Source of the DNA: Gammaproteobacteria bacterium
GTDB lineage: Bacteria; Pseudomonadota; Gammaproteobacteria; JAABTG01
DNA length: 64,000 bases
Assembly (NCBI GenBank): GCA_034522055.1
Contig: JAXHLS010000002.1
Location: 992,001-1,056,000 of the forward strand
Direction of reading: 5' to 3'
Made by a program: the position numbers and the translations under genes. Below, one piece after another: positions 15,012 to 46,968 of the stretch; the stretch's first letter is position 1, and each line of letters begins with the position of its first letter. The notes beneath the pieces are model-generated. The model saw only the letters and a list, made by a program, of their open reading frames with translations, had not been told where the DNA came from and searched no databases.

Positions 15012-15430
15012 GCCTGTCGGACATCCCTGTAACGGTGGAACCCCTGGTCCGTCCCACGGGCATGGCCCATGCCCTGCTGCGGGAGATCGCCGACCACCTG
15101 GCCGCCCTCGACGAGGCCGGCACGGAGAATGCCATCGATCTGTCCAGCCTGCCCATGAACAGCGCCGACATCGACGAGCTGAAGGCCCTGCTCGGTCACG
15201 GCGAGGTGAAGGTGGAACTCGAGACCGTGGGTCGCAGCGAGTTCCACGAGACCATCTATACCGGCATCTGGTGGGCCACCCACTTCGGCGATGACGGCAC
15301 CAAGTTGACCGAGCGCATTGAAATCACCGCCGTACCTGCCATGATCAAAAGCCATCCGGACGATATCCGCAACGCCCATCGGCGCTTGCGCGACACCCTT
15401 TCCACCGACGATCAGGAGATCCGCCCATGA
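15008..15430 (+). CDS. hupH: Hydrogenase expression/formation protein HupH/HyaF-like
   Basis: 140 residues matching the HupH C-terminal domain: EVKVELETVGRSEFHETIYTG and GIWWATHF are typical. HupH/HyaF proteins assist small- or large-subunit maturation; the exact step is unclear. This is a short version (classic HyaF is ~280 residues) with the C-terminal domain only. GAGGTGG before ATG 15008 supports the start. It overlaps hynD by 4 nt and hynS by 4 nt, indicating translational coupling. Confidence 0.85.
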   Translation: MSLSDIPVTVEPLVRPTGMAHALLREIADHLAALDEAGTENAIDLSSLPMNSADIDELKALLGHGEVKVELETVGRSEFHETIYTGIWWATHFGDDGTKLTERIEITAVPAMIKSHPDDIRNAHRRLRDTLSTDDQEIRP

Positions 15431-17159: not shown

Positions 17160-18532
17160 GTCTCAACTATGAAGCCTTCAACCAATTCGCCGAGATGGCG
17201 GGCCAGCTGGCGGACATGGACACGCCGGTGGAGATGCCGAACGACCAGCGGGTGGCCAACGCCAAACGGGTGATGATGGAGAAGATGGATGCCCCCAAGG
17301 CGGCGATGCTGGAATCCTGCATCCACTGCGGCATGTGCGCCGAGGTGTGCCACTTCTACATGACCCAGGAGGACGGCCGGCTCACCCCCATCCGCAAGCT
17401 CGACCTGCTGAAGCGCGTCTACCGCCGGGAACTCTCGCCCCTGCGCTGGATGCACCGGCTCTATACCCGGGACGTCACCATCGAGGACCTGGAAGAATGG
17501 CAGGAGCTGGTGTACGACACCTGCACGGTGTGCGGGCGCTGCAGCCTCATCTGCCCCATGGGCATCCACATCGCCGCCATGATGCCCATCATGCGCAACG
17601 CCTACGCGGCGGCGGGCATGGTGCCGGCGGAACTCCATCTCATGGACAGCCAGCAGGACCAGGGCCATCTGTTCGGGGTGGGCCAGAACGAGTTCATGGG
17701 CCTCATCGAGCAACTGCGCGGCCAGGGCCTGGAGATCCCGGTGGACAAGGACAAGGCGGACATCATGATCCTCACCTCGGTGCTGGACATCATGGTGAGC
17801 CAGGACTCTCTCGTCGCCATGATCAAGATCATGAACCACCTGGGCTACGACTGGACCTTCCGCAGCGATGGCTACGAGTGCGCCAACTTCGGCATGCTGT
17901 CGGGCGACGAGGAGGTCCAACTCAAGGCCTCCAAGCGCATCATCGATGCCGCCATAGCCTGCGGCGCCAAGAAGGTCATCGTGGCCGAGTGCGGCCACTC
18001 CTATCCGGCCCTGCGCTACGAGGCACCGGATATCTGGGGCCACGCCCTGCCCTTCGAGGTCCTGGCCACCTCCGAATTCCTGGGCCAGGAGGTGGAGAAG
18101 GGAAGACTCAAGCTCAAGAAGGCCGAGGGTGCCCACAGCGTCACCTTCCACGACCCCTGCAAAAACAACCGCTGGGGCGGCGTCGAAAAGGAACCCCGGG
18201 CGGTGCTCACGGCCCTGGGTCTCGAGATCCGCGAGCCGGAATCCACCGGCCGCACCAACATCTGCTGCGGCGGCGGCGGCGGGGCCTTCCTCATCAATCG
18301 TGCGGCGGAGCGTCGCCAGCGGGTGTTCGAACTCAAGCGCGACCAGATCGACGCCACGGGCTCCGAGGCCCTGGTGGTGACCTGCGGCAGTTGCCGCCTC
18401 AACTTCGAGGTCGGCAAGATGAAGAGCAACTGGGGCAAGCCCATCGAGAGCCTGGTGGAGATGGTGGGCGACAACCTCGATGACGGCTCCGGTGAGTCCA
18501 CCACCCGCACCGCGCAAACCAGCACGCAATAA
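17156..18532 (+). CDS. isp2: Isp2, heterodisulfide reductase HdrD-like iron-sulfur protein
   Basis: 458 residues, no signal peptide or membrane helix, so cytoplasmic. Two [4Fe-4S] motifs are at CIHCGMCAEVC and CTVCGRCSLICP (~58-130). Two CCG (cysteine-rich, HdrD-type) domains follow, with CGHSYPAL, HDPCKNNRWGG, NICCGGGGGAF and VTCGSCRLNF. CCG domains bind the noncubane [4Fe-4S] site of disulfide reduction in HdrB/HdrD. Isp2 is proposed to link the hydrogenase to a cytoplasmic thiol/disulfide or sulfur reaction through Isp1; the partner is not established. Confidence 0.94.
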   Translation: MSLNYEAFNQFAEMAGQLADMDTPVEMPNDQRVANAKRVMMEKMDAPKAAMLESCIHCGMCAEVCHFYMTQEDGRLTPIRKLDLLKRVYRRELSPLRWMHRLYTRDVTIEDLEEWQELVYDTCTVCGRCSLICPMGIHIAAMMPIMRNAYAAAGMVPAELHLMDSQQDQGHLFGVGQNEFMGLIEQLRGQGLEIPVDKDKADIMILTSVLDIMVSQDSLVAMIKIMNHLGYDWTFRSDGYECANFGMLSGDEEVQLKASKRIIDAAIACGAKKVIVAECGHSYPALRYEAPDIWGHALPFEVLATSEFLGQEVEKGRLKLKKAEGAHSVTFHDPCKNNRWGGVEKEPRAVLTALGLEIREPESTGRTNICCGGGGGAFLINRAAERRQRVFELKRDQIDATGSEALVVTCGSCRLNFEVGKMKSNWGKPIESLVEMVGDNLDDGSGESTTRTAQTSTQ

Positions 18533-18544
18533 AAGGACAGTCCC

Positions 18545-20302
18545 ATGGCACAACGAGTCGTAGTCGATCCCATCACCCGCATCGAAGGCCACCTGCGTAT
18601 CGAGGCCGCCACCGATGACGCGGGCAACATCTCCTCGGCCTACAGCTCCGGGACCATGGTGCGGGGCATCGAGACCATTCTCAAAGGCCGCGACCCGCGG
18701 GACGCCTGGGCCTTCGCCCAGCGTATCTGCGGCGTGTGCACCCTGGTCCACGGCATCGCCTCGGTGCGTTCGGTGGAGGACGCCCTGAACTACAAGATCC
18801 CCCAGAACGCACAGCTCATCCGCAACCTGATGATCGGCGCCCAGTACGTGCATGACCACGTGATGCACTTCTACCACCTTCACGCCCTGGACTGGGTGGA
18901 CGTGGTGTCGGCCCTGGACGCGGATCCCAAGAAGACCTCGGAGCTGGCCCAGTCCATATCGGACTACGCCCGTTCATCCCCCGGCTACTTCAAGGATGTC
19001 CAGAAACGCGTGAAGGAACTGGTGGAATCCGGCCAGCTCGGGATCTTCGCCAACGGCTACTGGGGACATCCCGAGTACAAGCTGCCGCCCGAGGCCAATC
19101 TCATGGCGGTGGCCCATTATCTGGACGCCCTGGCCTGGCAGCGGGACGTGGCAAAGCTCCATGCCATCCTCGGCGGCAAGAATCCCCATCCCAACTTCCT
19201 GGTGGGGGGCGCGCCCTCGCCCATCAGCATCGACACCGGCGGCACTACCGGCGGCGCCGCGGGCACGGCCCTGAATGTGGTGACCCTGAGCACCATCCGC
19301 AACATCATCCAGTCCATGCAGCAGTTCGTCGACCAGGTCTACGTGCCCGACACCCTGGCCATCGCCGGCTTCTACAAGGACTGGTTCGCCCGCGGTGAGG
19401 GTACCCGCAATTTCATGGTGTTCGGCGACCTGCCAGAAAAGGGCATGGACGACCCCGACAGCTACTTCTTCAAGCCCGGCGTCATCCTCAACCGCGACCT
19501 GTCCCACATCGAACCCGTGGACCTCAACGATCCGGAGCAGATAAAGGAGTTCGTCTCCCATTCCTGGTATGACTACAGTAGCGGCAAGGATGGGGGGCTG
19601 CACCCCTACGACGGCGAGACGGAACTGAACTACCACGGCCGCGGTGGCCCGGCGCCGCCCTACAAGCAGCTCAACGTGGACGACGGCTACTCGTGGCTGA
19701 AGTCGCCGCGCTGGCGCGGCCATGCAGTGGAGGTGGGCCCCCTGGCCCGCGTCCTCATGCTCTACGCCCAGGGCCACGAGCCCACCAAGGAACTGGCCGG
19801 TATGGCCCTGAAGAAGCTGGACGCCCCCATCGAGGCCATGTTCTCCACCCTCGGGCGCACCGCCGCCCGTACCCTGGAGTCCAAGCTGGTGGCCGACCAG
19901 ATGATCAACTGGCTGGATATCCTGGTGGCCAACATCAAGGCCGGCGACTTGAAGGTCCACAATGATGAGATGTGGGACCCGAGGACGTGGCCGAAGGAGG
20001 CCAGAGGCGTCGGCTACATGGAGGCCCCCCGTGGTGCCCTGTCCCATTACATCGTCATCAAGGATGGCAAGATAGACAACTATCAGGCGGTGGTGCCCTC
20101 CACCTGGAACGCCGGCCCGCGGGATACCGAGAACGTCGCCGGGCCCTACGAGGCGGCGCTGCAGGACAACCACAGTCTCCACGACGCCGCCCAGCCCATC
20201 GAGATCCTGCGCACCATTCACAGCTTCGATCCCTGCATCGCCTGTGCGGTGCATGTGAATGATCCCGATGGGGAAGAGGTGGTGAAGGTTAAGGTCCGGT
20301 AG
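18545..20302 (+). CDS. hynL: Isp-type [NiFe] hydrogenase large subunit
   Basis: 585 residues. The N-terminal L1 motif RICGVCTLVHG (Cys62, Cys65) and C-terminal L2 motif FDPCIACAVH (Cys564, Cys567) bind the Ni-Fe centre. After His570 a 15-residue tail remains, the peptide HynD should remove. It catalyses H2 to 2H+ + 2e- and is co-exported with HynS. AAAGGACAG precedes the ATG. The last gene of the operon, 12 nt after isp2 and followed by a strong terminator. Confidence 0.97.
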   Translation: MAQRVVVDPITRIEGHLRIEAATDDAGNISSAYSSGTMVRGIETILKGRDPRDAWAFAQRICGVCTLVHGIASVRSVEDALNYKIPQNAQLIRNLMIGAQYVHDHVMHFYHLHALDWVDVVSALDADPKKTSELAQSISDYARSSPGYFKDVQKRVKELVESGQLGIFANGYWGHPEYKLPPEANLMAVAHYLDALAWQRDVAKLHAILGGKNPHPNFLVGGAPSPISIDTGGTTGGAAGTALNVVTLSTIRNIIQSMQQFVDQVYVPDTLAIAGFYKDWFARGEGTRNFMVFGDLPEKGMDDPDSYFFKPGVILNRDLSHIEPVDLNDPEQIKEFVSHSWYDYSSGKDGGLHPYDGETELNYHGRGGPAPPYKQLNVDDGYSWLKSPRWRGHAVEVGPLARVLMLYAQGHEPTKELAGMALKKLDAPIEAMFSTLGRTAARTLESKLVADQMINWLDILVANIKAGDLKVHNDEMWDPRTWPKEARGVGYMEAPRGALSHYIVIKDGKIDNYQAVVPSTWNAGPRDTENVAGPYEAALQDNHSLHDAAQPIEILRTIHSFDPCIACAVHVNDPDGEEVVKVKVR

Positions 20303-34476: not shown

Positions 34477-34647
34477 ATGACAAACCCGGAAGAACAAGAG
34501 ACCCCAAACACCCGGGAGCGCATCCCCGGGATGCAATCCCTGCTGGACAACCCGTTCCTGCTGCTCTTCATCGGTGTCGCCATGCCCACCGTGTTCTACC
34601 TGGTGTGGGGCATCATGGAGATCGTCACCCTGCCCGTCGCGCCCTGA
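34477..34647 (+). CDS. Small single-pass membrane protein, first gene of the heme-copper island
   Basis: 56 residues: a polar, charged N-terminus (~25) and one membrane helix (NPFLLLFIGVAMPTVFYLVW). GGGAGAAAG precedes ATG 34477. It lies 25 nt before the CuA subunit gene and is probably a small accessory subunit of the same complex, like the short subunits of B-type oxidases; family not recognised. Confidence 0.72.
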   Translation: MTNPEEQETPNTRERIPGMQSLLDNPFLLLFIGVAMPTVFYLVWGIMEIVTLPVAP

Positions 34648-34672: not shown

Positions 34673-35209
34673 ATGACCTCATACATGCCCCCCGCGGATC
34701 GCATCTGGTGGAAGGTGCCCGTCGGCCGCCAGGAACTGGTGTGGATCGCCATCGCCCTGGTGTGGTGCCTGATCATGTTCGCCATGATGCCTTACTGGCA
34801 CGTCTACGGAAAACAGAACCTGTCCACCGAGGCCTACCAGACCACGCCCGAGAAATTCGGCATCAAGGTCCAGGAGATGATCGACAAGTACCAGGTCGGG
34901 GAAGAGGGCGGCATCCCCATCGTCAAGCCCCCCGCCGGCAGTGACATCTACCAGCTCGGGCGTCTCTGGCAGTGGTGGCCCATCTTCGAGCTCGAGAAGG
35001 ACAAGAGCTACCGCCTGCACCTGTCCTCCATGGACTGGCAGCACGGCTGGTCGTTGCAACCCGACAACATCAATCTGCAGATCGTGCCGGGCTACGAAAT
35101 GGTGTTGAAGATCACCCCCGATCGCGCCGGCGAGTACGGGGTGGTGTGCAACGAGTACTGCGGTATCGGCCACCACACGATGGTGGGCAAGATCTACGTG
35201 CGGGAGTAA
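34673..35209 (+). CDS. CuA-containing subunit II of a heme-copper oxidase/NO reductase
   Basis: 178 residues: one N-terminal membrane helix (~20-40) and a periplasmic cupredoxin domain with a complete CuA site. Ligands are His124 (MDWQHGW), Cys159 and Cys163 (VCNEYCGIGHH), His167 and Met170. The short, single-helix form resembles ba3-type subunit II and the NorS subunit of sNOR. It accepts electrons from a c-type cytochrome or cupredoxin and passes them to subunit I, 5 nt downstream. AGGAG precedes the ATG. Confidence 0.92.
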   Translation: MTSYMPPADRIWWKVPVGRQELVWIAIALVWCLIMFAMMPYWHVYGKQNLSTEAYQTTPEKFGIKVQEMIDKYQVGEEGGIPIVKPPAGSDIYQLGRLWQWWPIFELEKDKSYRLHLSSMDWQHGWSLQPDNINLQIVPGYEMVLKITPDRAGEYGVVCNEYCGIGHHTMVGKIYVRE

Positions 35210-35214
35210 AAACC

Positions 35215-36951
35215 ATGTCCGAATTTCGCATCTGTCCCGACTCCGGGTTCTATTTCCACAGGTCCGCCGAGAGCCTGATGAAGGTCAACGCGGTGGCCGG
35301 CGTGGTGGCCCTGCTGGTGGCGGGCGTGCTCGCCCTGGGGGTGGTCCTGACCCGCTGGCAGGAGGTCCACCTGCTGTCGCCGGAGGACTTCTACCTGGCC
35401 CTGACGGCCCACGGCATCAATGCCCTCATCTTCTGGATCATCTTCTTCGAGATGGCGGTGCTGCACTTCGCCGCCTCCACCCTGTTGCGGGCGCGCCTGG
35501 CGACCCCGGCCTGGGCCTGGACCGGCTTCCTGCTCATGCTGGTGGGGGCCATCATGAACAACGTCGCGGTGTTCCAGGGCAACTCCAGCGTCATGATGAC
35601 CTCCTACGTGCCCATGCAGGCCGAGCCCCATTTCTACCTGGGCCTCATCCTGTTCGCCGTGGGGGCCCTGATCCAGGTGTTCGTGTTCTTCGGCACCCTG
35701 GTGGTGGCCCAGCAGGAGAAGACCTACGAGGGCTCGGTGCCCCTGGTGACCTTCGGCGCCATCACCGCCGCCATCATCGCGGTCTTCACCATCGCCTCCG
35801 GCGCCATCATCCTGATACCCACCTTCCTGTGGTCCATCGGTTACATCAGCCACATCGACGCCGAGATGTACCGCATCGTGTGGTGGGGACTGGGACACTC
35901 ATCACAGCAGATCAACGTCGCCGCCCACGTCTCCATCTGGTACCTGCTGGCCGGGGTGCTGTTCGGTGCCCGCCCCATGTCCGAGAAGGTGAGCCGCACG
36001 GCCTTCCTGCTCTACATCTTCTTTCTGCAACTGGCCTGTGCCCACCATATCCTGGTGGACCCGGGCGTGGGCACGGAATGGAAAATCTTCAACACCAGCT
36101 ATGCCATGTACTTGGCGGTGCTGGCGAGCATGATCCACGGCCTCACGGTGCCGGGCGCCATGGAGGTGGCGCTGCGCAAGAAGGGTTATTCCAACGGCAT
36201 GTTCGAGTGGCTGCGCAAGGCCCCCTGGGGCAACCCGGTGTTCTCCGGCATGTTCATCTCCCTCGTGACCTTCGGCTTCATCGGCGGCATCACAGGGGTG
36301 GTGATGGGCACCGAGCAGATCAATCTCATCATCCACAACACCATCTACGTCCCGGCGCACTTCCATGCGACGGTGGTGACGGGGACCACCCTGACCTTCA
36401 TGGCCCTGACCTACCTGCTCATACCGGTGCTGTTCCGGCGCGAGATGATCCTGCCCAAGATGGCCAGGCTGCAGCCCTATGTCTTCGGCGGCGGCATGAC
36501 GGTGCTGATCCTGTTCATGCTGGGCGCCGGCACCCTCGGGGTATCACGCCGCCACTGGGACATGGACTTCACCGGAGCGGCCCTGCCCTTCGAGTACCCG
36601 GGCATGGCCTACACCCTCATGGCCATCGGTGCCATCGGCGGCGTGCTGGCCATCGTGGGGGGCGCCATGTTCCTGCTGGTGACCGTGGGCTCCCTGCTGG
36701 TCGGTAAGAAGCTGGACTCCTCCGCGGGCCTGCTCCAGAGCTTCATCGGCAAGCCGCTGGCCAGGGACAGCTACACCACGGCCACCCCCGAGACCCTGCC
36801 CATGGCGCCGCGTCTCACGGTGGAGGAGCACGGCTCGGCCGGCTTCGAGGCCCCCGGCACCTTCGTCCTGGCCATGCTGCTGCTGGTCACCTTCGTCGTC
36901 TACTACTTCATCAACTGGAAGTACCTGGCATCCGTCTGGCCCCTCGGATGA
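35215..36951 (+). CDS. Heme-copper oxidase superfamily subunit I (B-type/sNOR-like)
   Basis: 578 residues, 12-14 membrane helices. The six heme/metal histidines are in place: His66 (ALTAHGINA), His228 (WWGLGHSSQQ), His277-His278 (CAHHILVDPG), and His382 and His384 (PAHFHATVV). The residue four after His228, which in O2 reductases is the cross-linked Tyr, is Gln232. Loss of that Tyr is typical of NO-reducing branches. Gene order CuA subunit, subunit I, then SCO/SenC recalls norSY-senC of sNOR. The alternative, an aberrant B-type O2 reductase, is favoured by the adjacent heme O synthase and nearby heme A synthase genes. An acidic C-terminal loop precedes the last helix. Confidence 0.88.
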   Translation: MSEFRICPDSGFYFHRSAESLMKVNAVAGVVALLVAGVLALGVVLTRWQEVHLLSPEDFYLALTAHGINALIFWIIFFEMAVLHFAASTLLRARLATPAWAWTGFLLMLVGAIMNNVAVFQGNSSVMMTSYVPMQAEPHFYLGLILFAVGALIQVFVFFGTLVVAQQEKTYEGSVPLVTFGAITAAIIAVFTIASGAIILIPTFLWSIGYISHIDAEMYRIVWWGLGHSSQQINVAAHVSIWYLLAGVLFGARPMSEKVSRTAFLLYIFFLQLACAHHILVDPGVGTEWKIFNTSYAMYLAVLASMIHGLTVPGAMEVALRKKGYSNGMFEWLRKAPWGNPVFSGMFISLVTFGFIGGITGVVMGTEQINLIIHNTIYVPAHFHATVVTGTTLTFMALTYLLIPVLFRREMILPKMARLQPYVFGGGMTVLILFMLGAGTLGVSRRHWDMDFTGAALPFEYPGMAYTLMAIGAIGGVLAIVGGAMFLLVTVGSLLVGKKLDSSAGLLQSFIGKPLARDSYTTATPETLPMAPRLTVEEHGSAGFEAPGTFVLAMLLLVTFVVYYFINWKYLASVWPLG

Positions 36952-37042
36952 ACCAGGAATGAACGGCCGGGGCAACGCGCATGCAGGCGTTGCTCCGGCC
37001 CTGTTTTCCGGCACCACCAGGCCCCCACAGAGGCACAGCCCC

Positions 37043-37891
37043 ATGGTCAGACTGCTCATCGACGTGTTCAAAGTCCGCATCGGCGTGATGATGTCCATCA
37101 CCGCCGTGGTGGCCCTGATGGTGAGCCCCGGGCGGCCGGCCACCACCATGGACGTCGCCGTCCTGGCCCTGGCGGTGCTTTTCGCCTCCGCCAGTGCCGG
37201 CGCCTTCAACCAGTACTACGAGCGGGACCTGGATGCCCGCATGAAGCGCACCCGCAACCGGGCCTTCGTCACCGGAGTATTCACCCACAGCCGCTGGTGG
37301 CTGGCCCCCATCCTCGGGCTGCTGGTGGCGGGCGTGGGGGCGGCCGCCCTGCTGCTGAACGGGCTGTCCGCCCTGTTCGTCTTTCTCGGCGCCTTCTTCT
37401 ATGCCGTGGTCTATACCATGTGGCTGAAGCGCCGCACCTGGCTGAACATCGTCATCGGCGGCGCCTCCGGCAGCTTCGCCGTGCTGGCCGGTGGTGCGGT
37501 GGTGGACCCCAGCCTCGGCCCCATCCCCATCACCCTCGCCATCGTGCTGTTCCTGTGGACGCCGCCTCACTTCTGGAGCCTCGCCATCGCCCAGCGGGCG
37601 GACTACGCGGCGGCCGGCGTCCCCATGCTGCCGGTGGTGGTGGGCGACGACCAGGCGGCCCGGGCGGTGTTATGGAACGCCATCGCCCTGGCCTTGGCCT
37701 CCCTGCTGCCCTTCTACTTCGGTCTCGGCTGGCTGTATCTCCTGGGTGCCGCCGGCGGGGGCGGCTATTTCGTCTATCGCAGCTGGCTGCTGGCCCGCGA
37801 CCCCTCCCGCGGCAACGCCATCCAGAGTTTCCTGGCCTCCCTGGTCCAGCTCGTCGTGCTGCTGCTGTTCGCGGTGCTGGACACCCTGTGA
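37043..37891 (+). CDS. ctaB: Protoheme IX farnesyltransferase (heme O synthase)
   Basis: 282 residues, UbiA-family, eight to nine membrane helices. The prenyl-diphosphate motif NQYYERDLDARMKRTRNR and the second motif (TPPHFWSLAIAQRADY) are clear. It converts heme B to heme O for oxidase assembly. The ATG at 37043 follows GAGG. It is part of the island, 91 nt after subunit I, and suggests that at least one subunit I here holds heme O or A. Confidence 0.95.
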   Translation: MVRLLIDVFKVRIGVMMSITAVVALMVSPGRPATTMDVAVLALAVLFASASAGAFNQYYERDLDARMKRTRNRAFVTGVFTHSRWWLAPILGLLVAGVGAAALLLNGLSALFVFLGAFFYAVVYTMWLKRRTWLNIVIGGASGSFAVLAGGAVVDPSLGPIPITLAIVLFLWTPPHFWSLAIAQRADYAAAGVPMLPVVVGDDQAARAVLWNAIALALASLLPFYFGLGWLYLLGAAGGGGYFVYRSWLLARDPSRGNAIQSFLASLVQLVVLLLFAVLDTL

Positions 37892-37956: not shown

Positions 37957-38790
37957 ATGCACCCGCTGCTGATGATCATGCTGTTGGCTACGGCGATGGC
38001 CGCGGCCACCGCCTCGGCTCGGCCATTGAAGCCCAACGATGCCGACTCCCTCGAGGCCTTCGATTACAAGGCGGCCCTGGCGGCCAGCCAGGGTGCCATC
38101 GGCCGCCGGCTCTCCGACCACATGCTGACCGATGCCGCCGGCCGACGGGTGACGTTGGCCGGGTTCCGGGGCAAACCCCTGGTGATGAGCCTGGTGTTCA
38201 CCAGTTGTTCCACCATCTGTCCCACCACCACCCGGCACCTCGCCAGGGTGGTGGAAAAGGCCCGGGACACCGTGGGCGAAGGAAACTTCAATGTGGCCCT
38301 GGTGGGCTTCGACAGTCGCTTCGATACCCCCGAGATGATGGCGCGGTTCGCACGCAAGCAGGGTATTGCCGACAAGGGCTGGCATCTCCTCAGTGCCGAT
38401 GAGGACACCATCGCCGCCCTGACCCGGGAGCTGGGCTTCTACTTCGCCCCCTCGCCCAGCGGCTTCGACCACCTTGTGCAGGCCTCCATCATCGACGGCG
38501 ATGGCCAAGTCTACCGCCAGGTCTACGGCGAGGTCTTCGACACCCCCCTGCTGGTGGAACCCCTGTTGGAGCTGGTGCTCGGCCGTCCCCAGGTCCACCA
38601 CTCCGCCATCGATGATCTGATCAACCGGGTGCGCCTGTTCTGCACCACCTATGACCCCGTCACCGATTCCTACCATTTCGACTACTCCCTGTTCGTGGGC
38701 ATGTTTATCGGCGGACTGATCATGATGCTCACGGTGATCTTTCTGGTGCGGGAATATCTCCATGGCAAGGGCCGGCAACCCTCCTGCTGA
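37957..38790 (+). CDS. SCO1/SenC-family copper chaperone with C-terminal membrane helix
   Basis: 277 residues: a signal peptide (~1-22), then a thioredoxin-fold SCO domain with the copper motif TSCSTICPTT (C-x3-C) and the later His in FDHLVQ. After the domain there is an unusual ~55-residue extension ending in a membrane helix (SLFVGMFIGGLIMMLTVIFLV). SCO proteins metallate CuA. This C-terminal anchor replaces the usual N-terminal one. It lies between heme O synthase and the cytochrome b fusion gene. Confidence 0.9.
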   Translation: MHPLLMIMLLATAMAAATASARPLKPNDADSLEAFDYKAALAASQGAIGRRLSDHMLTDAAGRRVTLAGFRGKPLVMSLVFTSCSTICPTTTRHLARVVEKARDTVGEGNFNVALVGFDSRFDTPEMMARFARKQGIADKGWHLLSADEDTIAALTRELGFYFAPSPSGFDHLVQASIIDGDGQVYRQVYGEVFDTPLLVEPLLELVLGRPQVHHSAIDDLINRVRLFCTTYDPVTDSYHFDYSLFVGMFIGGLIMMLTVIFLVREYLHGKGRQPSC

Positions 38791-38814: not shown

Positions 38815-40398
38815 GTGACCTTCGTTAACCCGTTGAAACGTGCCTACCGCTGGCTCGAGGCCTGGTTCAACCTGTCCTTCGGGCCGGCATGGAATCCCCT
38901 CTATAACCTGGGCACCCTGGCCTTTTTCTTCTTCTGGATCGTCTTCATCAGCGGCCTGTACCTGTTCATCTTCTTCGATACAAGCCTCGCAGGCGCCTAC
39001 GCCTCGATGGAGTATATGACCCACGAGCAATGGTATGCAGCCGGCGTGATGCGCAGCCTCCATCGCTATGCCTCGGATGCGGCGGTGGTGACCATCCTGC
39101 TGCACATGTTCCGTGAGTTCGCCCTCGACCGTTACCGGGGCTTCCGCTGGTTCTCATGGTTCACCGGCGTGCCCACCCTGGGGCTGGTGATCGTGCTGGG
39201 GATCACCGGTTACTGGCTGGTATGGGACGAGTTGGCGCTGTATGTGGCCATGCTGTCGTCACGGCTGGCGGACGCCCTGCCGCTGGTGGGCGGGTCCATG
39301 GAGCGGGACTTCCTCGTCGGCCAGCTCACGGACAGGTTCTTCACCCTGATGGCCTTCCTCCACCTGCTCGGCCTGCCGGTGCTGTTCCTATTCGCCATCT
39401 GGATCCACGTCAAACGCCTGGCCAGGGTGGAGATCAACCCCCCGCGGGGTCTCGCGGTGGGCAGCCTGGTGGCGCTGCTGGCGCTGTCCCTGGCGGCGCC
39501 TGCCGAGAGCCATGGCCCGGCCGATCTGAGCCGGGTGGCGCCGGTGTTGAACCTGGACTGGTACTACCTCGGCCTCTATCCGCTGATGGACTACTGGAGC
39601 CCCGGCCAGACCTGGATCGCCATCCTCGGGCTGACCCTGCTGCTGATGCTGTTGCCATGGCTGCCACCCAGGCCCACCGGTCCGGCGGCGGAGGTCCATC
39701 TCGACCATTGCAACGGCTGCGGCCAATGCGCCGATGACTGCCCCTTCGATGCCATCACCGTACAGGCCCGCACCGATGGCGCGCGCTGGCCCCACGAGGT
39801 GGTGGTGGACCCCGCCCTGTGCGCCGCCTGCGGGATCTGCGTGGCCTCCTGCCCCTCTTCCAACCCCTTCCGCATGCGGGACAGGGCCCTGGTGACAGGC
39901 ATCGACATGCCGCAGTTCTCTGCCGATGACATGCGCAACCGCACCCGGGAGGCCCTGGCCGGCCTGGACACGGATACCCCCATCCTGGTGTTCGGCTGCG
40001 ACCATGCCCTGGACGTCTCGACCCTGGCGGCGGCGAACACCGCCACCATCAGCCTGTTCTGCACCGGCATGCTGCCGGCCACCCTGGTGGAGTTCGCCCT
40101 CAAGCACGGGGCCCATGGCGTTTTCATCACCGGTTGCCGCACCGGCGACTGCTACTACCGCTTCGGCAACCTGTGGCTGGATAAGCGCTTCGCGGGCAGT
40201 CGCAAGCCCATCCTGAGGGCTCGCGCCGATCGCTCGCGCATACGCGTGTTCCGCGGCGCGGAGACCGACGGCACCGCCATCCGCCAGGCCTTGGCGGATT
40301 TCGGCGAAGAGTTGGCCGGCCGCGCCCCTCCCGGCCAACCCCCCAGCCAACCCCCTAGTCCCCGCACGACCACGGAGACGGATCATGGCGCGCGATAG
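38815..40398 (+). CDS. Cytochrome b / 2x[4Fe-4S] ferredoxin / MvhD fusion protein
   Basis: 527 residues in three modules. (1) Residues 1-285: a b6-like diheme cytochrome b with His83/His97 and His183/His198 (13- and 14-residue spacings) and a later LDWYYLGLYP that recalls the Qo-site PEWY segment. (2) Residues 296-350: two C-x2-C-x2-C-x3-CP [4Fe-4S] motifs (Cys299-309 and Cys336-346). (3) Residues ~388-460: an MvhD/FlpD-type [2Fe-2S] domain with Cys395, Cys416, Cys441 and Cys446 (GCRTGDCYYRFGN), lacking one of the usual five Cys. It should move electrons between quinol and a cytoplasmic partner. Start is GTG with GAGG upstream; its stop overlaps the next gene by 14 nt. Confidence 0.88.
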   Translation: MTFVNPLKRAYRWLEAWFNLSFGPAWNPLYNLGTLAFFFFWIVFISGLYLFIFFDTSLAGAYASMEYMTHEQWYAAGVMRSLHRYASDAAVVTILLHMFREFALDRYRGFRWFSWFTGVPTLGLVIVLGITGYWLVWDELALYVAMLSSRLADALPLVGGSMERDFLVGQLTDRFFTLMAFLHLLGLPVLFLFAIWIHVKRLARVEINPPRGLAVGSLVALLALSLAAPAESHGPADLSRVAPVLNLDWYYLGLYPLMDYWSPGQTWIAILGLTLLLMLLPWLPPRPTGPAAEVHLDHCNGCGQCADDCPFDAITVQARTDGARWPHEVVVDPALCAACGICVASCPSSNPFRMRDRALVTGIDMPQFSADDMRNRTREALAGLDTDTPILVFGCDHALDVSTLAAANTATISLFCTGMLPATLVEFALKHGAHGVFITGCRTGDCYYRFGNLWLDKRFAGSRKPILRARADRSRIRVFRGAETDGTAIRQALADFGEELAGRAPPGQPPSQPPSPRTTTETDHGAR

Positions 40399-40891
40399 GG
40401 CGAAGCGCTTGGCGCTACAGGCGCTCAACTACGCCATGTTCATGGCGGTGGTGTGGTATTTCTCCTTCAGTCCCCCCTACCGACAGCTGGCGGCGGATGA
40501 GGCGGTGGTCACCGTGGCCTTCGGTCATACCTCCGAGCGCATCGCCCCCTGTGTCGCCTTGACCCCCGACGAGCTGGCACAACTGGCACCGAACATGCGC
40601 AAACCCATGGACTGTCCCCGCGAGCGCTCGCCCGTCACCCTGGAGCTGAGACTGGATGGCGAGGTGTTCGCACGCGAGGTGATCCAGCCCCCGGGGCTCT
40701 ACCGGGACCAGCGCATCGACGTCTTCCGCGAGGTCACCGCCCGGGAGGGGGCCCACCGCCTGTCCATCCTGATGAACGATGACGCCAGCGTGGAAGGGCC
40801 GACCTACCGGCTGCAGGACACCGTGGTCCTGCGGCCCGCCCAGCGGCTGGTGGTCGCCTTTTCCAAGGCCCAGGGGTTTTACATCCCATGA
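40385..40891 (+). CDS. Hypothetical membrane-anchored periplasmic protein
   Basis: 168 residues: a basic N-terminus, one membrane helix (~12-28, LNYAMFMAVVWYFSFSP), and a periplasmic beta-rich domain with two Cys (Cys57 and Cys77 region) and a C-terminal RLVVAFSKAQGFYIP. No family recognised. Overlap with the fusion gene upstream and 21 nt to the next heme-copper gene point to a role as subunit or assembly factor of the same complex. Confidence 0.72.
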   Translation: MARDRAKRLALQALNYAMFMAVVWYFSFSPPYRQLAADEAVVTVAFGHTSERIAPCVALTPDELAQLAPNMRKPMDCPRERSPVTLELRLDGEVFAREVIQPPGLYRDQRIDVFREVTAREGAHRLSILMNDDASVEGPTYRLQDTVVLRPAQRLVVAFSKAQGFYIP

Positions 40892-40912: not shown

Positions 40913-42415
40913 ATGACCAGAGAGATGACGCCATTCCAACCCGTGGACCACCACCCGGGGGCGACCTTTCCCCCGCCGGGCACCGGCGGCGACACCCCGG
41001 CGGATGTCGAGGCGGGCCGCATCGACGACTTCTACCTCGACATGCCCGGCCGCGACGCCGCCGGCCGCGCGGTGCGCCGCCTGACCATCGGCTGGCTGTC
41101 CTTGGCCCTCGGCTCCCTGGTGCTCGGCGGCCTCCTGACCCTGGTAATCGTGCTGTCGCGCACCCCCTACATCCAGGACGTCTTCCCCTGGACGGACCTG
41201 TTTCACACCGCGCTGGTGGTACACGTGGATCTCACCGTGCTGGTGTGGTTCCTCGCCGTGGCAGGGATGTTCTGGAGCCTCAACAGCCGGCCTGCTTGTG
41301 CGGCCTGGGGCTGGGTCGCCCTGGTGCTGGCCACCGCCGGCGCCCTCACCCTCACCGCCGCACCCTTCGTGGGCACCGGAGAGCCCCTGATGGTCAATTA
41401 CATCCCGGTGTTGGACGACCCCGTATTCTTCACCGGGCTCATCCTGTTCACGGCGGGTTTCGTGCTGCTGGTGGGCCGCAGCCTGGTGTTCTCCCACCCC
41501 ATCGGCGCCCGCATCAGCGGCCCGGGGGCGCTGCGCTTCGGTCTCTTCTCCTCCCTCATCGCCGCGGTGGTGGCCCTGAGTGCCTTTGCTGCCTCCTACC
41601 TGGGGCTCCCGGAGGGCATCCACGGCGAGCGTTACTTCGAGCTGCTGTTCTGGGGCGGCGGGCATACCCTGCAGTTCGTCCACATCCAGCTCATGCTGGT
41701 GGCCTGGCTGTGGCTGGCCACCGCCACCGGCATCACCTCCAGGCTGACTCCCCGGGTGGTGCTGGTGCTGTTCGCCGTCGGCCTCATCCCGGTGCTGTTG
41801 ACGCCCCTCGCCTATCTCAACTTCCCGGTGGATTCCCCGTCCCATCAGCACACCATGACCTGGCTGATGCGCTACGGCGGTGGCCTCGCCGCGGTCCCCA
41901 TCGGGCTGGTGATCCTCTTCAATCTCGTCCAGTCCATGGGGCGCCCCCACCAGTGGCGCCCGGAACGCGCCGCCCTGTTTTCCTCCATGGTGCTGTTCGG
42001 CGCCGGGGGCCTGGTGGCCTTCATGATCCAGGGCAGCGATGTCACCGTGCCCGCCCATTATCACGGCTCCATCGTGGCCGTGACCCTGGCCTACATGGGC
42101 ATGACCTATCACCTGCTGCCGCGCCTCGGCTTCGCCCGCCCCAGCGGCCGCGCGGCTACTCTCCAGCCCTGGCTCTACGGCGGGGGCCAACTCCTCCATG
42201 TCATCGGACTGGCCTGGTCGGGGGGCTATGGGGTCCAGCGCAAGACGGCGGGCGAGGCCCAGATGCTGGACGCCGTGGAGAAGATCGCCGGCATGGGCCT
42301 CATGGGCCTGGGCGGCCTGATCGCGGTGTCGGGCGGCGTCCTCTTTCTGGTACTTACCCTGGGTGCCATGAGGCCCCAACGGGGCGACAGGGCGTCTAGA
42401 GCAGTGCCTGAATGA
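40913..42415 (+). CDS. Second, divergent heme-copper oxidase-like subunit I
   Basis: 500 residues with about 12 membrane helices after a 55-residue hydrophilic N-terminus. Histidines at superfamily positions: His104 (LVVHVDLTV), His251 (WGGGHTLQFVH), His311 and His313 (SHQHTMTW, split by one residue instead of an HH pair), and His382 and His384 (PAHYHGSIV). The Tyr position after His251 is Phe255; His257 is extra. It has no own CuA or cytochrome c subunit next to it. Related to cbb3/NOR-like subunit I at the broad level; activity unknown. Its 3' end overlaps the convergent small gene by 20 nt. Confidence 0.82.
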   Translation: MTREMTPFQPVDHHPGATFPPPGTGGDTPADVEAGRIDDFYLDMPGRDAAGRAVRRLTIGWLSLALGSLVLGGLLTLVIVLSRTPYIQDVFPWTDLFHTALVVHVDLTVLVWFLAVAGMFWSLNSRPACAAWGWVALVLATAGALTLTAAPFVGTGEPLMVNYIPVLDDPVFFTGLILFTAGFVLLVGRSLVFSHPIGARISGPGALRFGLFSSLIAAVVALSAFAASYLGLPEGIHGERYFELLFWGGGHTLQFVHIQLMLVAWLWLATATGITSRLTPRVVLVLFAVGLIPVLLTPLAYLNFPVDSPSHQHTMTWLMRYGGGLAAVPIGLVILFNLVQSMGRPHQWRPERAALFSSMVLFGAGGLVAFMIQGSDVTVPAHYHGSIVAVTLAYMGMTYHLLPRLGFARPSGRAATLQPWLYGGGQLLHVIGLAWSGGYGVQRKTAGEAQMLDAVEKIAGMGLMGLGGLIAVSGGVLFLVLTLGAMRPQRGDRASRAVPE

Positions 42416-42572
42416 GCGAGAAGGAACCGAAGGCCAGTGCGAGAAAGATGAAGAAGAACACCACCGAGCGGTTGGGCAGGCGCTCGCCGTGCCTCACCTC
42501 GATGGCGTTCAACAGGCGATCCGCCGCGAGATAAAGGGCCACGCCCACCGCCATGAAGAGGATCATTTCCAT
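42396..42572 (-). CDS. Small two-helix membrane protein
   Basis: 58 residues with two membrane helices (residues 2-20 and 37-57) around a short basic loop (EVRHGERLPNR). GGAGCAGG lies just before ATG 42572. The last gene of the minus-strand group (membrane protein, SCO, DUF420, this gene). The C-terminal end overlaps the end of the convergent heme-copper gene. Function unknown, presumably oxidase-related by location. Confidence 0.72.
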   Translation of the reverse strand: MEMILFMAVGVALYLAADRLLNAIEVRHGERLPNRSVVFFFIFLALAFGSFSLIQALL

Positions 42573-42639
42573 CGCCTGCTCCGCTTGTCCGCCATCTGCC
42601 GCGCCGGGACATCGCCGGCGTCTATGGGACCGGCCCCCA

Positions 42640-43128
42640 TCATGGCGTCGCAGCGAGGCGCGTCGAGGCCGCCCCGCTCCCCTTGGCCATGTCGGCGGGA
42701 TCCATGCCGGGGTAGATGTGGAAGGCCATAGCATAGACCACCACCCCCGTCACCGACACGTAGAGCCATATGGGCAGGGTCCAGCGGGCCACGCGGCGGT
42801 GGCGCCCGGTGCGCGAACCGAGGGCCAGGCCGGCGGTGACGAGGGCCAGGGGAAACAGCACCGCCGCCAGGATCACGTGGGATGCCAGGATGGTAAAGTA
42901 CACCGGCCGAGCCACACCCTGACCGGCGAAAGGCACGTTACCGATGCGGGCGTGGTAGTAGAGGTAGAACACCATGAACACCACTGACACCAGCAAGGCA
43001 CTCACCATGCATGCCCGGTGGGCCCGCACCGCCCGGGCCCGGATGAACATGAAACCCACCGCTACCAGGATCGCCGCGGTGGCGTTCAGGGCGGCCAGCA
43101 GGTGGGGAATGACGTTGATCAGTTCCAT
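42640..43128 (-). CDS. DUF420 (CtaM/YozB-like) membrane protein
   Basis: 162 residues, four membrane helices. Start ELINVIPHLLAALNATAAIL and later HRACMVSALLVSVVFMVFYLYYH, HVILAAVLFP and HRRVARWTLPIWLYVSVTGVVVY with conserved His are typical of DUF420. The Bacillus/Staphylococcus members (CtaM) are needed for aa3-type oxidase maturation. It follows a SCO gene by 31 nt, a common pairing. GAGGATC lies before ATG 43128. Confidence 0.9.
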   Translation of the reverse strand: MELINVIPHLLAALNATAAILVAVGFMFIRARAVRAHRACMVSALLVSVVFMVFYLYYHARIGNVPFAGQGVARPVYFTILASHVILAAVLFPLALVTAGLALGSRTGRHRRVARWTLPIWLYVSVTGVVVYAMAFHIYPGMDPADMAKGSGAASTRLAATP

Positions 43129-43159
43129 AGCGGGATCCTCGGATGGCGGATGTGGGCGG

Positions 43160-43777
43160 TCAGCCGCCGGACGGAGCGGTAGTGCCGGCACGCAGCTCAC
43201 CGTAGAGGGCCGCCAGCTCCTCACGATGATGGGGTGGCGGAAAGGAGGCCACCACCGTGGCCCCGGGCTCCACCAGGAATACGGCGCCCGGATCCGCCGC
43301 CGGATCCCCCGTCGCCACACCGAAGGGCCGGGCGAACGCGGCAAGGGCCGGTGGCGGTCCCGTGAGGCCGATGAAGGCGCGGGAGAAGAAGGCCAGATAG
43401 GTGGCCAGCACCTCCGGCGTGTCGTGGGCCGGGTCCACGGTGACGAAGATCAACTGGGCCGCCCGCCGGGACGGGGCCGGCAGGTCACGCATCATGTAGG
43501 TCAGCTCCGTGAGGGCCGCGGGGCAATCGTCACGGCAGCGGGTGTGGCCGAAGAAGACGAAGCTCCAGCGCCCCTCCATGTCGGCGCGGGTGAAGTCCCG
43601 GCCGCGATGGTCCTGGAGTTCGAAGGAGCCGAGGGGTGCCCCGTCGATGATGGGCGACGGCGCGTAGCCGCCGTCGGACCGTGGCTGCGGGGAGGACATC
43701 AGCAGGGCCACCACACCCACCACCACCAGCCACAACAGGAACAAGGCCAGGGTGCCCACCGGCAGACGGGTCCTCAT
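43160..43777 (-). CDS. SCO family copper chaperone
   Basis: 205 residues: an N-terminal membrane anchor (~8-30), then the SCO domain with TRCRDDCPAAL (C-x3-C copper site), VTVDPAHDTPEVL, and His residues in PPPHHREEL. It delivers copper to, or reduces, CuA. Start ATG 43777 overlaps the stop of the upstream gene by 4 nt; DUF420 is downstream. Confidence 0.92.
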   Translation of the reverse strand: MRTRLPVGTLALFLLWLVVVGVVALLMSSPQPRSDGGYAPSPIIDGAPLGSFELQDHRGRDFTRADMEGRWSFVFFGHTRCRDDCPAALTELTYMMRDLPAPSRRAAQLIFVTVDPAHDTPEVLATYLAFFSRAFIGLTGPPPALAAFARPFGVATGDPAADPGAVFLVEPGATVVASFPPPHHREELAALYGELRAGTTAPSGG

Positions 43778-44142
43778 GGACGGCCTCCGGGGCCGGAGCG
43801 GGTTCGTTTCCACTCCCCCACGAACCACCAGGCGAAGCCGCCCATGACGGCGAGATTGATCACCAGGCCGATGAAAAAGAACCCCATCAGGCCGGGATCG
43901 GCGGAGTCCCCGGCCCCGGGACCCGGCGCGGCGACAAGCGGTTCCACCTGCGACCCACGGTTCTCCGCTTGCGCCACCGGCACCCCGTCCCGGGGGACGG
44001 CCGCGGCCGCCGAGACCCCTGCCATGAACCCTATGACCATGAACACGGCGGCCATCAGGACCATCAGGCAACGGCGGGCCCACCGCCCGGGGGCCGATAG
44101 GCCCGACACATCAATAATCGAACGATGGAGTGGTCTCGTCAT
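43774..44142 (-). CDS. Hypothetical two-helix membrane protein
   Basis: 122 residues: a hydrophobic N-terminal segment (~25-48, like a signal or anchor), a Pro/Gly/Ala-rich linker and a second helix (MGFFFIGLVINLAVMGGFAWWF) with a basic end. Translationally coupled to the SCO gene (ATGA). The ATG at 44142 has no ribosome site and overlaps the opposite-strand start at 44141; an internal Met (27 or 30) may be the true start. Family unknown. Confidence 0.6.
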   Translation of the reverse strand: MTRPLHRSIIDVSGLSAPGRWARRCLMVLMAAVFMVIGFMAGVSAAAAVPRDGVPVAQAENRGSQVEPLVAAPGPGAGDSADPGLMGFFFIGLVINLAVMGGFAWWFVGEWKRTRSGPGGRP

Positions 44143-44638
44143 GAAAGGTGTATACAGGTTTCGAGCAATACTTTCCGCGGCCCTCGTGCTATCGCTCCTG
44201 ATGCCGTCGTCTGGCCACGCCGATGAAGATAGCGGCGCCAGGCTCTCCGGTTACTACGCCCGCGAGCAGAACGACGGCGAGCTGGCCCGGGCCTCGCGAC
44301 GCAGCCACTACATCCGGTTCTATCCCGAAAACCGGGTGGTGCGGCTGGTCATTCCCTTCCCTTATGCCACCAGCCTCGATCCGGACACCGTGCGAGCGGT
44401 GTTCCGGCGAGCCGCGGGCAAAACCAGCGGCAGCGCCTATATCTCCGACACCTTCGGAGTGCTGGACCGCAGGGTCATGGCCCATATCGATTTCGTCAAG
44501 CGCATCGATGGACGGACCCTGTTCGATTGCGACCAAAGTGTTCCTTGTACGATGAAGTTCGATGACGGGTCCATGAGAATTATCAAGAAGGGGCTCATCA
44601 AGGATCATGTAACATCCTTTGCATTCATTCCGGACTGA
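44141..44638 (+). CDS. Hypothetical secreted protein
   Basis: 165 residues with a clear signal peptide (FRAILSAALVLSLLMPSSGHA). The mature part is ~140 residues, mixed alpha/beta, with two Cys close together (DCDQSVPC) that may form a disulfide and a basic C-terminal half. No family recognised. GGAG lies ~10 nt before the ATG. First of a plus-strand group leading to hemerythrin and ctaA. Confidence 0.68.
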   Translation: MKGVYRFRAILSAALVLSLLMPSSGHADEDSGARLSGYYAREQNDGELARASRRSHYIRFYPENRVVRLVIPFPYATSLDPDTVRAVFRRAAGKTSGSAYISDTFGVLDRRVMAHIDFVKRIDGRTLFDCDQSVPCTMKFDDGSMRIIKKGLIKDHVTSFAFIPD

Positions 44639-44686
44639 GGCGCGTCGAACGCCGGGACATCCGGCGTACGCCGGAGGGGGCTGACC

Positions 44687-45139
44687 ATGCTGGGTCGCAA
44701 GCGAACAACCGTAGTGGAGGGGGCCCATTGCCTGCTCAAGGACGTGGGCGTCAATGCCATCAATCGCCAGCACCTGCGGCTGGCGAGCTATGCAGTGGAG
44801 TTCAATCAGATCGTGGACGAGCTGTCCGGCAGGGAACCGACCAACGAGGACTGGCGGCGTTTCGACGCCCTCTTTTCCAAGGTCAGGCGCTACGTGCAGA
44901 CCCATTTCCAGGAAGAAGAGGCACTCATGCAGGCCCACGGCTATCCCGACTTCGCGGCCCATAAGCGCCTGCACGATGACTTCGTCAAGCAACTGATCGA
45001 CGTGCAATCGAAGATCAACGACCGGCGGGTGGAGTTCAAGGACAGGTTCGGCGTCATGCTATGGAACTGGCTCAAACACCATATCAACGAGGAAGACTAC
45101 AAGTACCGGGAGTTCTTCCGTGCCGAGGGGCTCGAATGA
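44687..45139 (+). CDS. Bacteriohemerythrin
   Basis: 150 residues. The di-iron ligands are conserved: His29 (NRQHLRL), His73 and Glu77 (THFQEEE), His92 and His96 (HKRLHDDF), His132 and Asp137 (HINEED). Bacterial hemerythrins bind O2, and some bind NO, and can supply or sense these gases. GGAGGGGG precedes the ATG; the stop overlaps the ctaA start by 4 nt, linking it to heme-copper oxidase biogenesis. Confidence 0.93.
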   Translation: MLGRKRTTVVEGAHCLLKDVGVNAINRQHLRLASYAVEFNQIVDELSGREPTNEDWRRFDALFSKVRRYVQTHFQEEEALMQAHGYPDFAAHKRLHDDFVKQLIDVQSKINDRRVEFKDRFGVMLWNWLKHHINEEDYKYREFFRAEGLE

Positions 45140-46248
45140 GCAGCGGCGAGGCGCCCATGGCCATGGGCGAGGCCGCGGCACCCGCCAGCCCCGCCGACCC
45201 CGGGAACGGGCGGCGGGCCATCGGCCTCTGGCTGCTCGCCTGCTGCGCCACCATCTATGCCATGGTGGTGTTGGGCGGGGTGACACGGCTCACCGGCTCC
45301 GGCCTGTCCATGGTGGATTGGCGGCCCATCCTGGGCGTCCTGCCACCTCTCAACGAGGCCCAGTGGCTCCGGGTCTTCGAGTTGTACCAGCAATCCCCGG
45401 AGTTCAAGGTCAAGAACTTCGGGATGGATCTCGCGAGCTTCAAGAATATATTCTGGTTCGAATACGCCCACCGCCTGCTGGGGCGCCTCATCGGGGTGAT
45501 CTTCCTGGTGCCGCTGCTCTACTTCGCCGCCACCCGGCGGGTGGACAAAGCGCTCGCCGGCAAGCTCGTCGCCCTGTTCATCCTGGGCGGCCTCCAGGGC
45601 CTGCTGGGGTGGTACATGGTCCAGAGCGGTCTGGTGGACGTCCCCCGGGTCAGCCCCTATCGGCTCACGGCCCATTTGGGGCTCGCATTCGTGATCTATG
45701 GATACATGTTCTGGGTCGCCCTCGACGTGCTCCGTCCCCATGGGTGGGCGGCCCGAATCGGCGACATGACCGGCCTGCGCCGGCTGGCCTACGGGGTCAC
45801 GGGCCTCATCGCCGTCACCATGCTGTCCGGGGGCTTCGTGGCCGGCCTGCGGGCGGGCTTGGCCTACAACACCTTCCCGCTGATGAACGGGCAATGGGTA
45901 CCGGATGGCCTGCTGTCCATGGATCCGATCTGGCGCAACCTGTTCGAGAACATCACCACGGTCCAGTTCGACCATCGCCTGCTGGCCGCCGTGACCAGCA
46001 TCGCCATCGTCATGCTGTGGCTGGCATCCCTGCGGCGGCGGCTGCCCACCGCCCTCCAGGCGGCGTCCCATGTGCTCCTGCTGCTGCTGGCGTTTCAGGT
46101 CACCCTGGGCATCACCACCCTGCTGCTCCACGTGCCGGTACCCCTGGCCGCCGCCCACCAGGCGGGCGCCCTGGCCCTGCTCACTGCCGCCCTGTTTCTC
46201 ACTCATGGATTGACTAAAGTCAAAGCCGCCCAACCCGACGGCGCCTAA
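45136..46248 (+). CDS. ctaA: Heme A synthase
   Basis: 370 residues, eight membrane helices. Conserved motifs: GGVTRLTGSGLSMVDW in helix 1 and its loop, FEYAHRLLGRLIG with heme-ligand His, a second His in YRLTAHLGLAF, then VQFDHRLLAA and AAAHQAGALALL. It oxidises the heme O methyl to a formyl group. With ctaB and three SCO genes it shows that the cell makes heme A. Coupled to hemerythrin by an ATGA overlap. An FNR-type site is inside its 3' end. Confidence 0.95.
   Translation: MSSGEAPMAMGEAAAPASPADPGNGRRAIGLWLLACCATIYAMVVLGGVTRLTGSGLSMVDWRPILGVLPPLNEAQWLRVFELYQQSPEFKVKNFGMDLASFKNIFWFEYAHRLLGRLIGVIFLVPLLYFAATRRVDKALAGKLVALFILGGLQGLLGWYMVQSGLVDVPRVSPYRLTAHLGLAFVIYGYMFWVALDVLRPHGWAARIGDMTGLRRLAYGVTGLIAVTMLSGGFVAGLRAGLAYNTFPLMNGQWVPDGLLSMDPIWRNLFENITTVQFDHRLLAAVTSIAIVMLWLASLRRRLPTALQAASHVLLLLLAFQVTLGITTLLLHVPVPLAAAHQAGALALLTAALFLTHGLTKVKAAQPDGA
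46210..46223 (+). promoter_or_regulatory. FNR/FixK-type palindrome in the 3' end of ctaA
   Basis: TTGACTAAAGTCAA is a perfect TTGAC-N4-GTCAA palindrome, the same type as at 14146. It lies inside the last codons of ctaA and 110 nt before the SCO gene at 46333, a reasonable distance for an FNR-activated promoter. No good -10 follows. Confidence 0.5.
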
Positions 46249-46332
46249 CGTTCCGATCATGCCCCCCATGCCCCGCCCGGCGGGCCGCATGGTCGGGGCG
46301 GCAAGGGCATCGAACCACGGGAGTTCAACGTA

Positions 46333-46968
46333 ATGGCTATGAGGTCATCCACCACCATCGGGCTGGCGGTGCTGCTGCTGGCGGGAGTGACCACCCTGGG
46401 CTTCGGCCTGACCCCGTGGCCCCATTCGAACGCCGCCGTACCGCCGGAGCTGCGGGCGGTGATGCGGCCTGAGCCCAGGCCCCTGGCCCCCTTCCATGTC
46501 GTGGACCACCACGGCCGGCCCTACGGCCTGGAGCGCCTGGAAGGCAAGTGGAGTTTCGTCTTCTTCGGCTACACCTACTGCCCGGACATCTGCCCCGCCA
46601 CCCTCTCCACCCTGGCCTTCGTATTCAAACGCCTGGAACGTACCGCCGGCGACGCGGCGGATATTCAGTCCCTGTTCGTTTCCGTGGACCCCGAGCGCGA
46701 TACCCCGCAGTTGCTGGCGGACTATGTCGGCTATTTTCATGACGAATTCACCGCCGCCACGGGGGGCCCCGGCGACATCGAGGACCTCGCCCGCCAATTC
46801 GGCGCCGGTTATATGCGGGAGGCCGGCAAGGAGGGCGACGACTACCTCATCAGCCATACCAGCTCCATCTTCCTGGTGGACCCCCAACAGCGGCTGGTCG
46901 CCGCCTTCGCACCACCCCACGACCCCGCCACCATCGCGACCCAGTTCACGCGCATCAGGGATCTCTGA
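46333..46968 (+). CDS. SCO family copper chaperone
   Basis: 211 residues: an N-terminal membrane anchor (~8-26), then a canonical SCO domain with FFGYTYCPDICPATLS (C-x3-C), VSVDPERDTP and the His of ISHTSSIFLVD. It supplies copper to CuA. Third SCO gene of the island; closest of the three to the standard SCO1 sequence. An FNR-type palindrome lies upstream. Confidence 0.94.
   Translation: MAMRSSTTIGLAVLLLAGVTTLGFGLTPWPHSNAAVPPELRAVMRPEPRPLAPFHVVDHHGRPYGLERLEGKWSFVFFGYTYCPDICPATLSTLAFVFKRLERTAGDAADIQSLFVSVDPERDTPQLLADYVGYFHDEFTAATGGPGDIEDLARQFGAGYMREAGKEGDDYLISHTSSIFLVDPQQRLVAAFAPPHDPATIATQFTRIRDL

Follow-up and report, generated by a model that had tools for sequence, protein, structure and literature searches.

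Known nitric oxide (NO) reductases receive their electrons from cytochrome c, cupredoxins or quinol. The eNOR family of heme-copper NO reductases (PMC8756737, citing Hemp and Gennis 2008) consists of enzymes whose subunit I is encoded with a cupredoxin subunit II directly upstream (PMC8756737), and its hallmark is a Gln at the Tyr position (Table A4 in PMC8756737). We analysed a window of 64,000 nucleotides from a gammaproteobacterial genome, in which an operon shares with the eNORs of Thermus and Thermomicrobium both the CuA subunit II gene upstream and a subunit I whose catalytic Tyr position is taken by Gln. Unlike those two systems, the window operon also contains a gene for a fused cytochrome b, Fe-S and FlpD protein and a gene for a 168-aa protein. 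Since the Thermus and Thermomicrobium eNORs do without this module, it is an add-on that is unnecessary for eNOR catalysis.

The fusion protein itself shares features with several described systems. With the cytochrome b of bc1 and b6f complexes it shares helices A-F, the four His ligands, a PEWY-like loop and the fold, but its operon has no Rieske and no cytochrome c1 or f genes, helices G-H are absent, and an Fe-S/MvhD tail has been added. The Fer4-Fer4-FlpD order, the sequence and the MvhD fold of this tail are common to MvhD/FlpD proteins and the C-terminal part of HdrA2, whereas here the tail is joined to a cytochrome b and not to an HdrA flavoprotein. In QmoABC, QmoB carries an MvhD-type domain, QmoC is an HdrE-type cytochrome b, and QmoA and QmoB are HdrA-like flavoproteins. 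That complex is thus similar in linking quinone chemistry to an MvhD-type domain, but the fusion lacks a flavin domain and its cytochrome b is of the bc type. A further entry is RME88945.1, in which cytochrome b6, a DMSOR_beta-like Fe-S domain and FlpD occur in one protein (Table A3 in PMC8756737). It has the same domains as the fusion and is listed there merely for also matching a cytochrome c (C1) domain, with neither its function nor its operon discussed (PMC8756737). Beyond this table row, no work in the literature covered brings together MvhD/FlpD, NO reductase and cytochrome b. The main eNOR survey, reportedly that of Murali et al. (PNAS 2024), lay outside that coverage and might mention the operon.

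We examined the architecture of the fusion using domain searches, alignments and structure prediction. Its gene lies on the plus strand at 38815-40398 (all coordinates are positions within the window) and is an uninterrupted ORF of 527 aa from a GTG start to the stop. Pfam places Cytochrome_B at residues 27-200 (65 bits, above the curated cut-off), two Fer4 domains inside residues 293-357 (above the curated cut-offs) and FlpD at residues 406-500 (52.4 bits against a cut-off of 22.3). The domains named by an earlier, sequence-only reading of this DNA are thus all present in one intact protein. Partial matches in NCBIfam agree, the best being b-type cytochromes for the N-terminal part and, for residues 291-501, the C-terminal region of HdrA2 (NF040770). 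An assembly join or a frameshift, which the same reading had named as a finding that would undo it, is ruled out as the origin of the fusion by the single ORF, by about 80 relatives and by a finished Defluviimonas plasmid.

An alignment of 83 homologues shows which residues of the protein are conserved. His83, His97, His183 and His198 (encoded within 39061-39408) are invariant in 83/83, so that helices B and D carry two bis-His heme sites. The Qo-type ef-loop motif LDWY (residues 247-250; 39553-39564) replaces PEWY and stands opposite the PEWY of Aquifex cytochrome b in a phmmer alignment that is weak by sequence (17 bits), and its Asp248-Trp249 is likewise found in all 83 sequences. The two [4Fe-4S] ferredoxin motifs occupy residues 293-350 (39691-39864), and their eight Cys are retained in 82-83 of the 83 homologues. 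The sequence-only reading had described a diheme cytochrome b that has its two His pairs, LDWY in the position of the PEWY of Qo sites, and two complete ferredoxin motifs, and each of these holds across the family. Its MvhD-type domain also stands, located at residues 389-500 (39979-40314) by Pfam, alignment and fold match. Its count of "4 of 5 Cys", on the other hand, is better given as four family-conserved Cys (395, 416, 441 and 446; retained in 82-83/83), which are predicted to be enough for one [2Fe-2S] cluster.

Structural comparisons point in the same direction. In each of its two halves, the membrane domain aligns with mitochondrial cytochrome b at the level of the family profile, and profile and fold both align with cytochrome b across helices A-F. 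In the AlphaFold model (mean pLDDT 85.9, pTM 0.82), about 285 residues match bc1 cytochrome b, while a separate part matches the MvhD chain 8rvu_F (TM 0.77 by target).

The island around the fusion, from a gene for a 56-aa protein to one for a second heme-copper-like subunit, is a consecutive run of genes on the plus strand. The 56-aa protein (34477-34647; MTNPEEQETPNTRERIPGMQSLLDNPFLLLFIGVAMPTVFYLVWGIMEIVTLPVAP) is a single-helix membrane protein that, from a reading of its sequence, is a probable small eNOR subunit. It has no match in Pfam, and its equivalents precede CuA in 11 relatives and also in Defluviimonas, Thermus and Thermomicrobium. CuA subunit II follows (34673-35209; COX2 and CoxB matches) with the complete CxExCxxxHxxM ligand set and an upstream His, and the CuA ligands are conserved in 49-50 of 50 aligned homologues. 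This gene, with its full ligand set, lies immediately 5' of the gene for the heme-copper subunit I, HCO1 (35215-36951; COX1, 201 bits), which is the arrangement that characterizes eNOR. The GHSSQQ segment of HCO1 aligns with GHPIVY of ba3 oxidase and thereby places a Gln at the catalytic Tyr position; Gln-Gln is present in 54/54 HCO1 sequences of relatives. HCO1 is about 44% identical to homologues encoded on plasmids of Thermus thermophilus and Thermomicrobium roseum, both with GHGAQQ, and a Haloarcula ba3 oxidase from the same search retains the Tyr (GHPVVY). One Thermus sequence is named in the eNOR set of PMC8756737. As far as its encoded proteins tell, the island is the operon of an eNOR-type NO reductase, an enzyme that would be expected to reduce NO.

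Between HCO1 and the fusion lie genes for a heme o synthase (CyoE/CtaB; 36959-37891; TIGR01473, 252.9 bits, above cut-off) and an SCO1/SenC-like copper chaperone (37957-38790; PF02630, 56 bits). Downstream, the end of the fusion gene is overlapped by the start of the gene for the 168-aa protein (40385-40891), which has an N-terminal membrane helix and a beta-sandwich according to the homologue alignment and a model with a pLDDT of 93.2. Across 76 homologues, Cys56 and Cys77 are invariant and His48 and His124 near-invariant. Pfam gives no match to this protein and fold searches return weak beta-sandwich matches only, the best of which (Foldseek E 2e-3; VIA Z 8.8) are both HGSNAT and uninformative. 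Its gene accompanies the cytochrome b gene even where HCO1 sits on another contig, and the protein could be a redox or copper-handling partner. The run ends with HCO2 (40913-42415; COX1, 43 bits, and alignment), a second heme-copper-like subunit I that is present beside the eNOR operon in most neighbourhoods of relatives. In the alignment, HCO2 retains one CuB-type His and three heme His, and the CuB His-His pair is missing, so that it probably has no CuB site. The stretch at 42396-46968 holds further recurrent neighbours, namely a small membrane protein, DUF420, SCO copies, bacteriohemerythrin and CtaA, and 23 of the 35 relatives with full flanks have a hemerythrin-type gene no more than 10 kb away.

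The sequence-only reading had placed the fusion beside CuA and heme-copper genes and proposed a tabulation of its genomic neighbours. The placement was correct and the arrangement is conserved. A contig scan gave 253 candidate relatives, and 80 were taken, from Gammaproteobacteria and Rhodospirillales-type Alphaproteobacteria. Nearly all relatives with enough flank have the order small TM protein, CuA, HCO1, (ctaB), SCO, fusion, 168-aa protein, and the finished plasmid, from Defluviimonas sp. SAOS-178_SWC and with one copy of the fusion, bears the full gene set together with hemerythrin. Among 398 Pseudomonadota genomes, the fusion occurs in 34, HCO1 in 30 and both in 29 (Fisher p = 8e-38, for genomes that are not independent). 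In the sole genome with HCO1 only (G122), the contig ends right after SCO, where the fusion would be expected; five genomes have the fusion without HCO1, and their assemblies are 69-82% complete in four cases and split into 730 contigs in the fifth (G197). Several genomes carry the fusion and 168-aa genes on a different contig than HCO1 and the genes still co-occur, so adjacency is insufficient to explain the pattern. The fusion is a near-obligate partner of this eNOR in Pseudomonadota.

Second copies of the fusion also stand alone, away from HCO1 (contigs L061, L071, L072 and L073), and the source genomes of L071-L073 carry an operon copy as well; some copies may therefore serve other enzymes. 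On L073 (2696-11515), an nqr-type operon and a gene for a multiheme cytochrome of the c7 type precede the solo fusion, a hint that the module may also work with other periplasmic acceptors. The NqrF gene next to this copy closes an nqrA-F-like operon and was hence taken as weak evidence only. The solo copies at L071:8192-11524 and L072:3-2655 come after a gene whose product combines cyclic-nucleotide-binding and rhodanese domains. FlpD-type fusion genes are also found in tandem, at L077:10001-13773 (Thioalkalivibrio denitrificans) and in G188, G253, G279 and G330, and such a pair is possibly a heterodimeric cytochrome b.

A different tail occurs on a sister cytochrome b. In one genome (G418), the same operon encodes a second cytochrome b that ends in Fer2, FAD_binding_6 and NAD_binding_1 instead of Fer4-Fer4-FlpD, this being the one case in which the domains of the reductase-tailed fusion were confirmed with Pfam. 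Full-length fusions of cytochrome b, Fer2, FAD and NAD domains are present in 18 genomes of one bacterial family, nearly all from different genera, and in 13/13 regions read the reductase-tailed copy is within or adjoining the eNOR operon, alongside the FlpD-type copy. In a phylogenetic tree, the 13 reductase-tailed heads form one clade with a support of 1.0 that is nested in the FlpD-type family. Of all the results, these copies hint most strongly that the cytochromes trade electrons on their cytoplasmic side with pyridine nucleotides or with a carrier reduced by them, and by analogy the FlpD-type copy may do the same.

The surroundings of the operon are often those of denitrification. Of the 35 full-flank relatives, 19 have some nir/nos gene no more than 10 kb away, and in 17 a gene of the cytochrome cd1 (nirS-type) nitrite reductase type is that close; in representatives, Pfam confirmed Cytochrom_D1, tetrapyrrole methylase, NirDL-like siroheme decarboxylase and NosR-like FMN_bind/Fer4_5. 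The genome from which the window comes has three cd1 (NirS)-type genes at 3.66 Mb of contig C2, with a cNOR NorB near them, and another bc-type cytochrome b elsewhere. Because a separate cNOR is present, the eNOR here is predicted to be a second NO reductase. That a cytochrome b with cytoplasmic Fe-S/MvhD domains might be coupled to NO respiration had been suggested from the sequence alone, and its place in an eNOR-type operon, often beside nir/nos genes, upholds this part of the suggestion.

Considering the observed architecture, ligand conservation, operon, near-obligate co-occurrence with eNOR and reductase-fused sister together, we think it likely on balance that the fusion serves an eNOR-type CuA NO reductase system as its dedicated subunit for electron transfer across the membrane, and that eNOR probably takes electrons from inside the cell by an uncharacterised route. 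The bc-type cytochrome b part would hold two b hemes and form, with LDWY, a quinone pocket on the P side, and the cytoplasmic tail would contribute two [4Fe-4S] clusters and an MvhD-type [2Fe-2S] domain. In the direction of flow that we infer, the soluble partner would be a cytoplasmic reductant, either NAD(P)H acting via a flavoprotein or ferredoxin, which would reduce the MvhD [2Fe-2S] cluster. Electrons would then pass through the two [4Fe-4S] clusters to heme bH and heme bL, and from heme bL, by a presumed direct contact, to CuA and the eNOR active site, where NO would be reduced. Quinol may be a second input at the LDWY site. Such a path would allow NO reduction without cytochrome bc1 and cytochrome c. 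A search for a flavoprotein partner adjoining the FlpD-type copy found none, and the invariant Qo-type residues exceed the needs of a pure cytoplasm-to-CuA wire, which counts against this explanation even though it is the best that we have.

Those residues are central to a possible but unlikely alternative, NO-driven bifurcation of quinol, in which quinol would be oxidised at LDWY, one electron would go to CuA and NO, and the other would travel over the b hemes and Fe-S clusters to ferredoxin or NAD(P)+. The conservation throughout of both the Qo-type Asp248-Trp249 (83/83) and the cytoplasmic clusters speaks for it, as do the sister copy with its NAD(P)H-type reductase and the many relatives that are sulfur-oxidising Gammaproteobacteria, since sulfur oxidisers could need reverse electron flow. 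However, the operon is without a Rieske protein, for which there was no match among the operon proteins of the window or in the identified recurrent neighbour clusters. With the textbook potentials of about +90 mV for ubiquinol and about +250 mV for CuA, the second electron would end up at about -70 mV. That is too high to reduce NAD+, except with menaquinol as the donor or with CuA kept very oxidised. It is in our judgement quite unlikely that a cytochrome b without a Rieske protein splits quinol electrons in a supercomplex with the NO reductase, sending one to CuA and NO and the other uphill through an MvhD or FNR tail to NAD(P)+ or ferredoxin, so that NO respiration would yield cytoplasmic reducing power. 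The conserved quinone-pocket motif, together with a core operon that has no cytochrome c gene, would also suit a plain quinol:CuA oxidoreductase that feeds eNOR and whose Fe-S/MvhD tail is a sensor or a relic. Yet the twelve Fe-S Cys are kept in at least 82/83 sequences, unlike in a relic, and sister copies swap the tail for another complete redox tail, which makes this reading distinctly doubtful. We regard it as highly improbable that the island is an O2 reductase and its module serves O2 respiration: HCO1 is homologous to the subunit I of ba3-type oxidases, and a heme o synthase gene and ctaA are close by, but every HCO1 has Gln for the catalytic Tyr where the Haloarcula ba3 relatives keep GHPVVY, and nir/nos genes are nearby.

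The sequence-only reading had proposed an exchange of electrons between the fusion and an Hdr/Isp2-type heterodisulfide-like enzyme, linking respiration to thiol/sulfur metabolism. Its starting points are real, in that residues 291-501, which make up the tail, are similar to the C-terminal region of HdrA2 (NF040770) and the window contains a gene for an HdrD-like Isp2 (17156-18532) with DsrK, HmcF and TmcB as best matches. This Isp2, however, was rejected as the partner of the fusion and assigned to its own [NiFe]-hydrogenase operon, which lies at 15427-20302 and encodes, in order, the small subunit, Isp1 (TmcC/HmcE-like), Isp2 (HdrD/DsrK-like) and the large subunit. The window's genome has no HdrA flavoprotein, the HdrA model matching ferredoxin stretches only, and a FlpD search of it returned a single domain, the fusion's own. 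Within the subset of CCG-domain proteins that was classified, two encoded elsewhere match GlcF best. With no HdrA, a single FlpD and Isp2 in a hydrogenase operon, the Hdr/Isp2 partner is not borne out; the thiol/sulfur link likewise finds no support, and what the sister cytochrome b carries as its tail is a ferredoxin reductase of the NAD(P)H type, not an Hdr protein. We therefore give this reading very little credence.

These results describe what appears to be a widespread family of likely N2O-forming enzymes with a cytochrome b of their own that reaches the cytoplasm. The tail of this eNOR-linked cytochrome b comes in two interchangeable forms, Fe-S/MvhD and NAD(P)H reductase, and the fusion is a testable example of a bc-type cytochrome b working without a Rieske protein. 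If active, the system would tie NO reduction directly to cytoplasmic redox pools, and would alter models of energy conservation and N2O release in many sulfur-oxidising and other denitrifiers.
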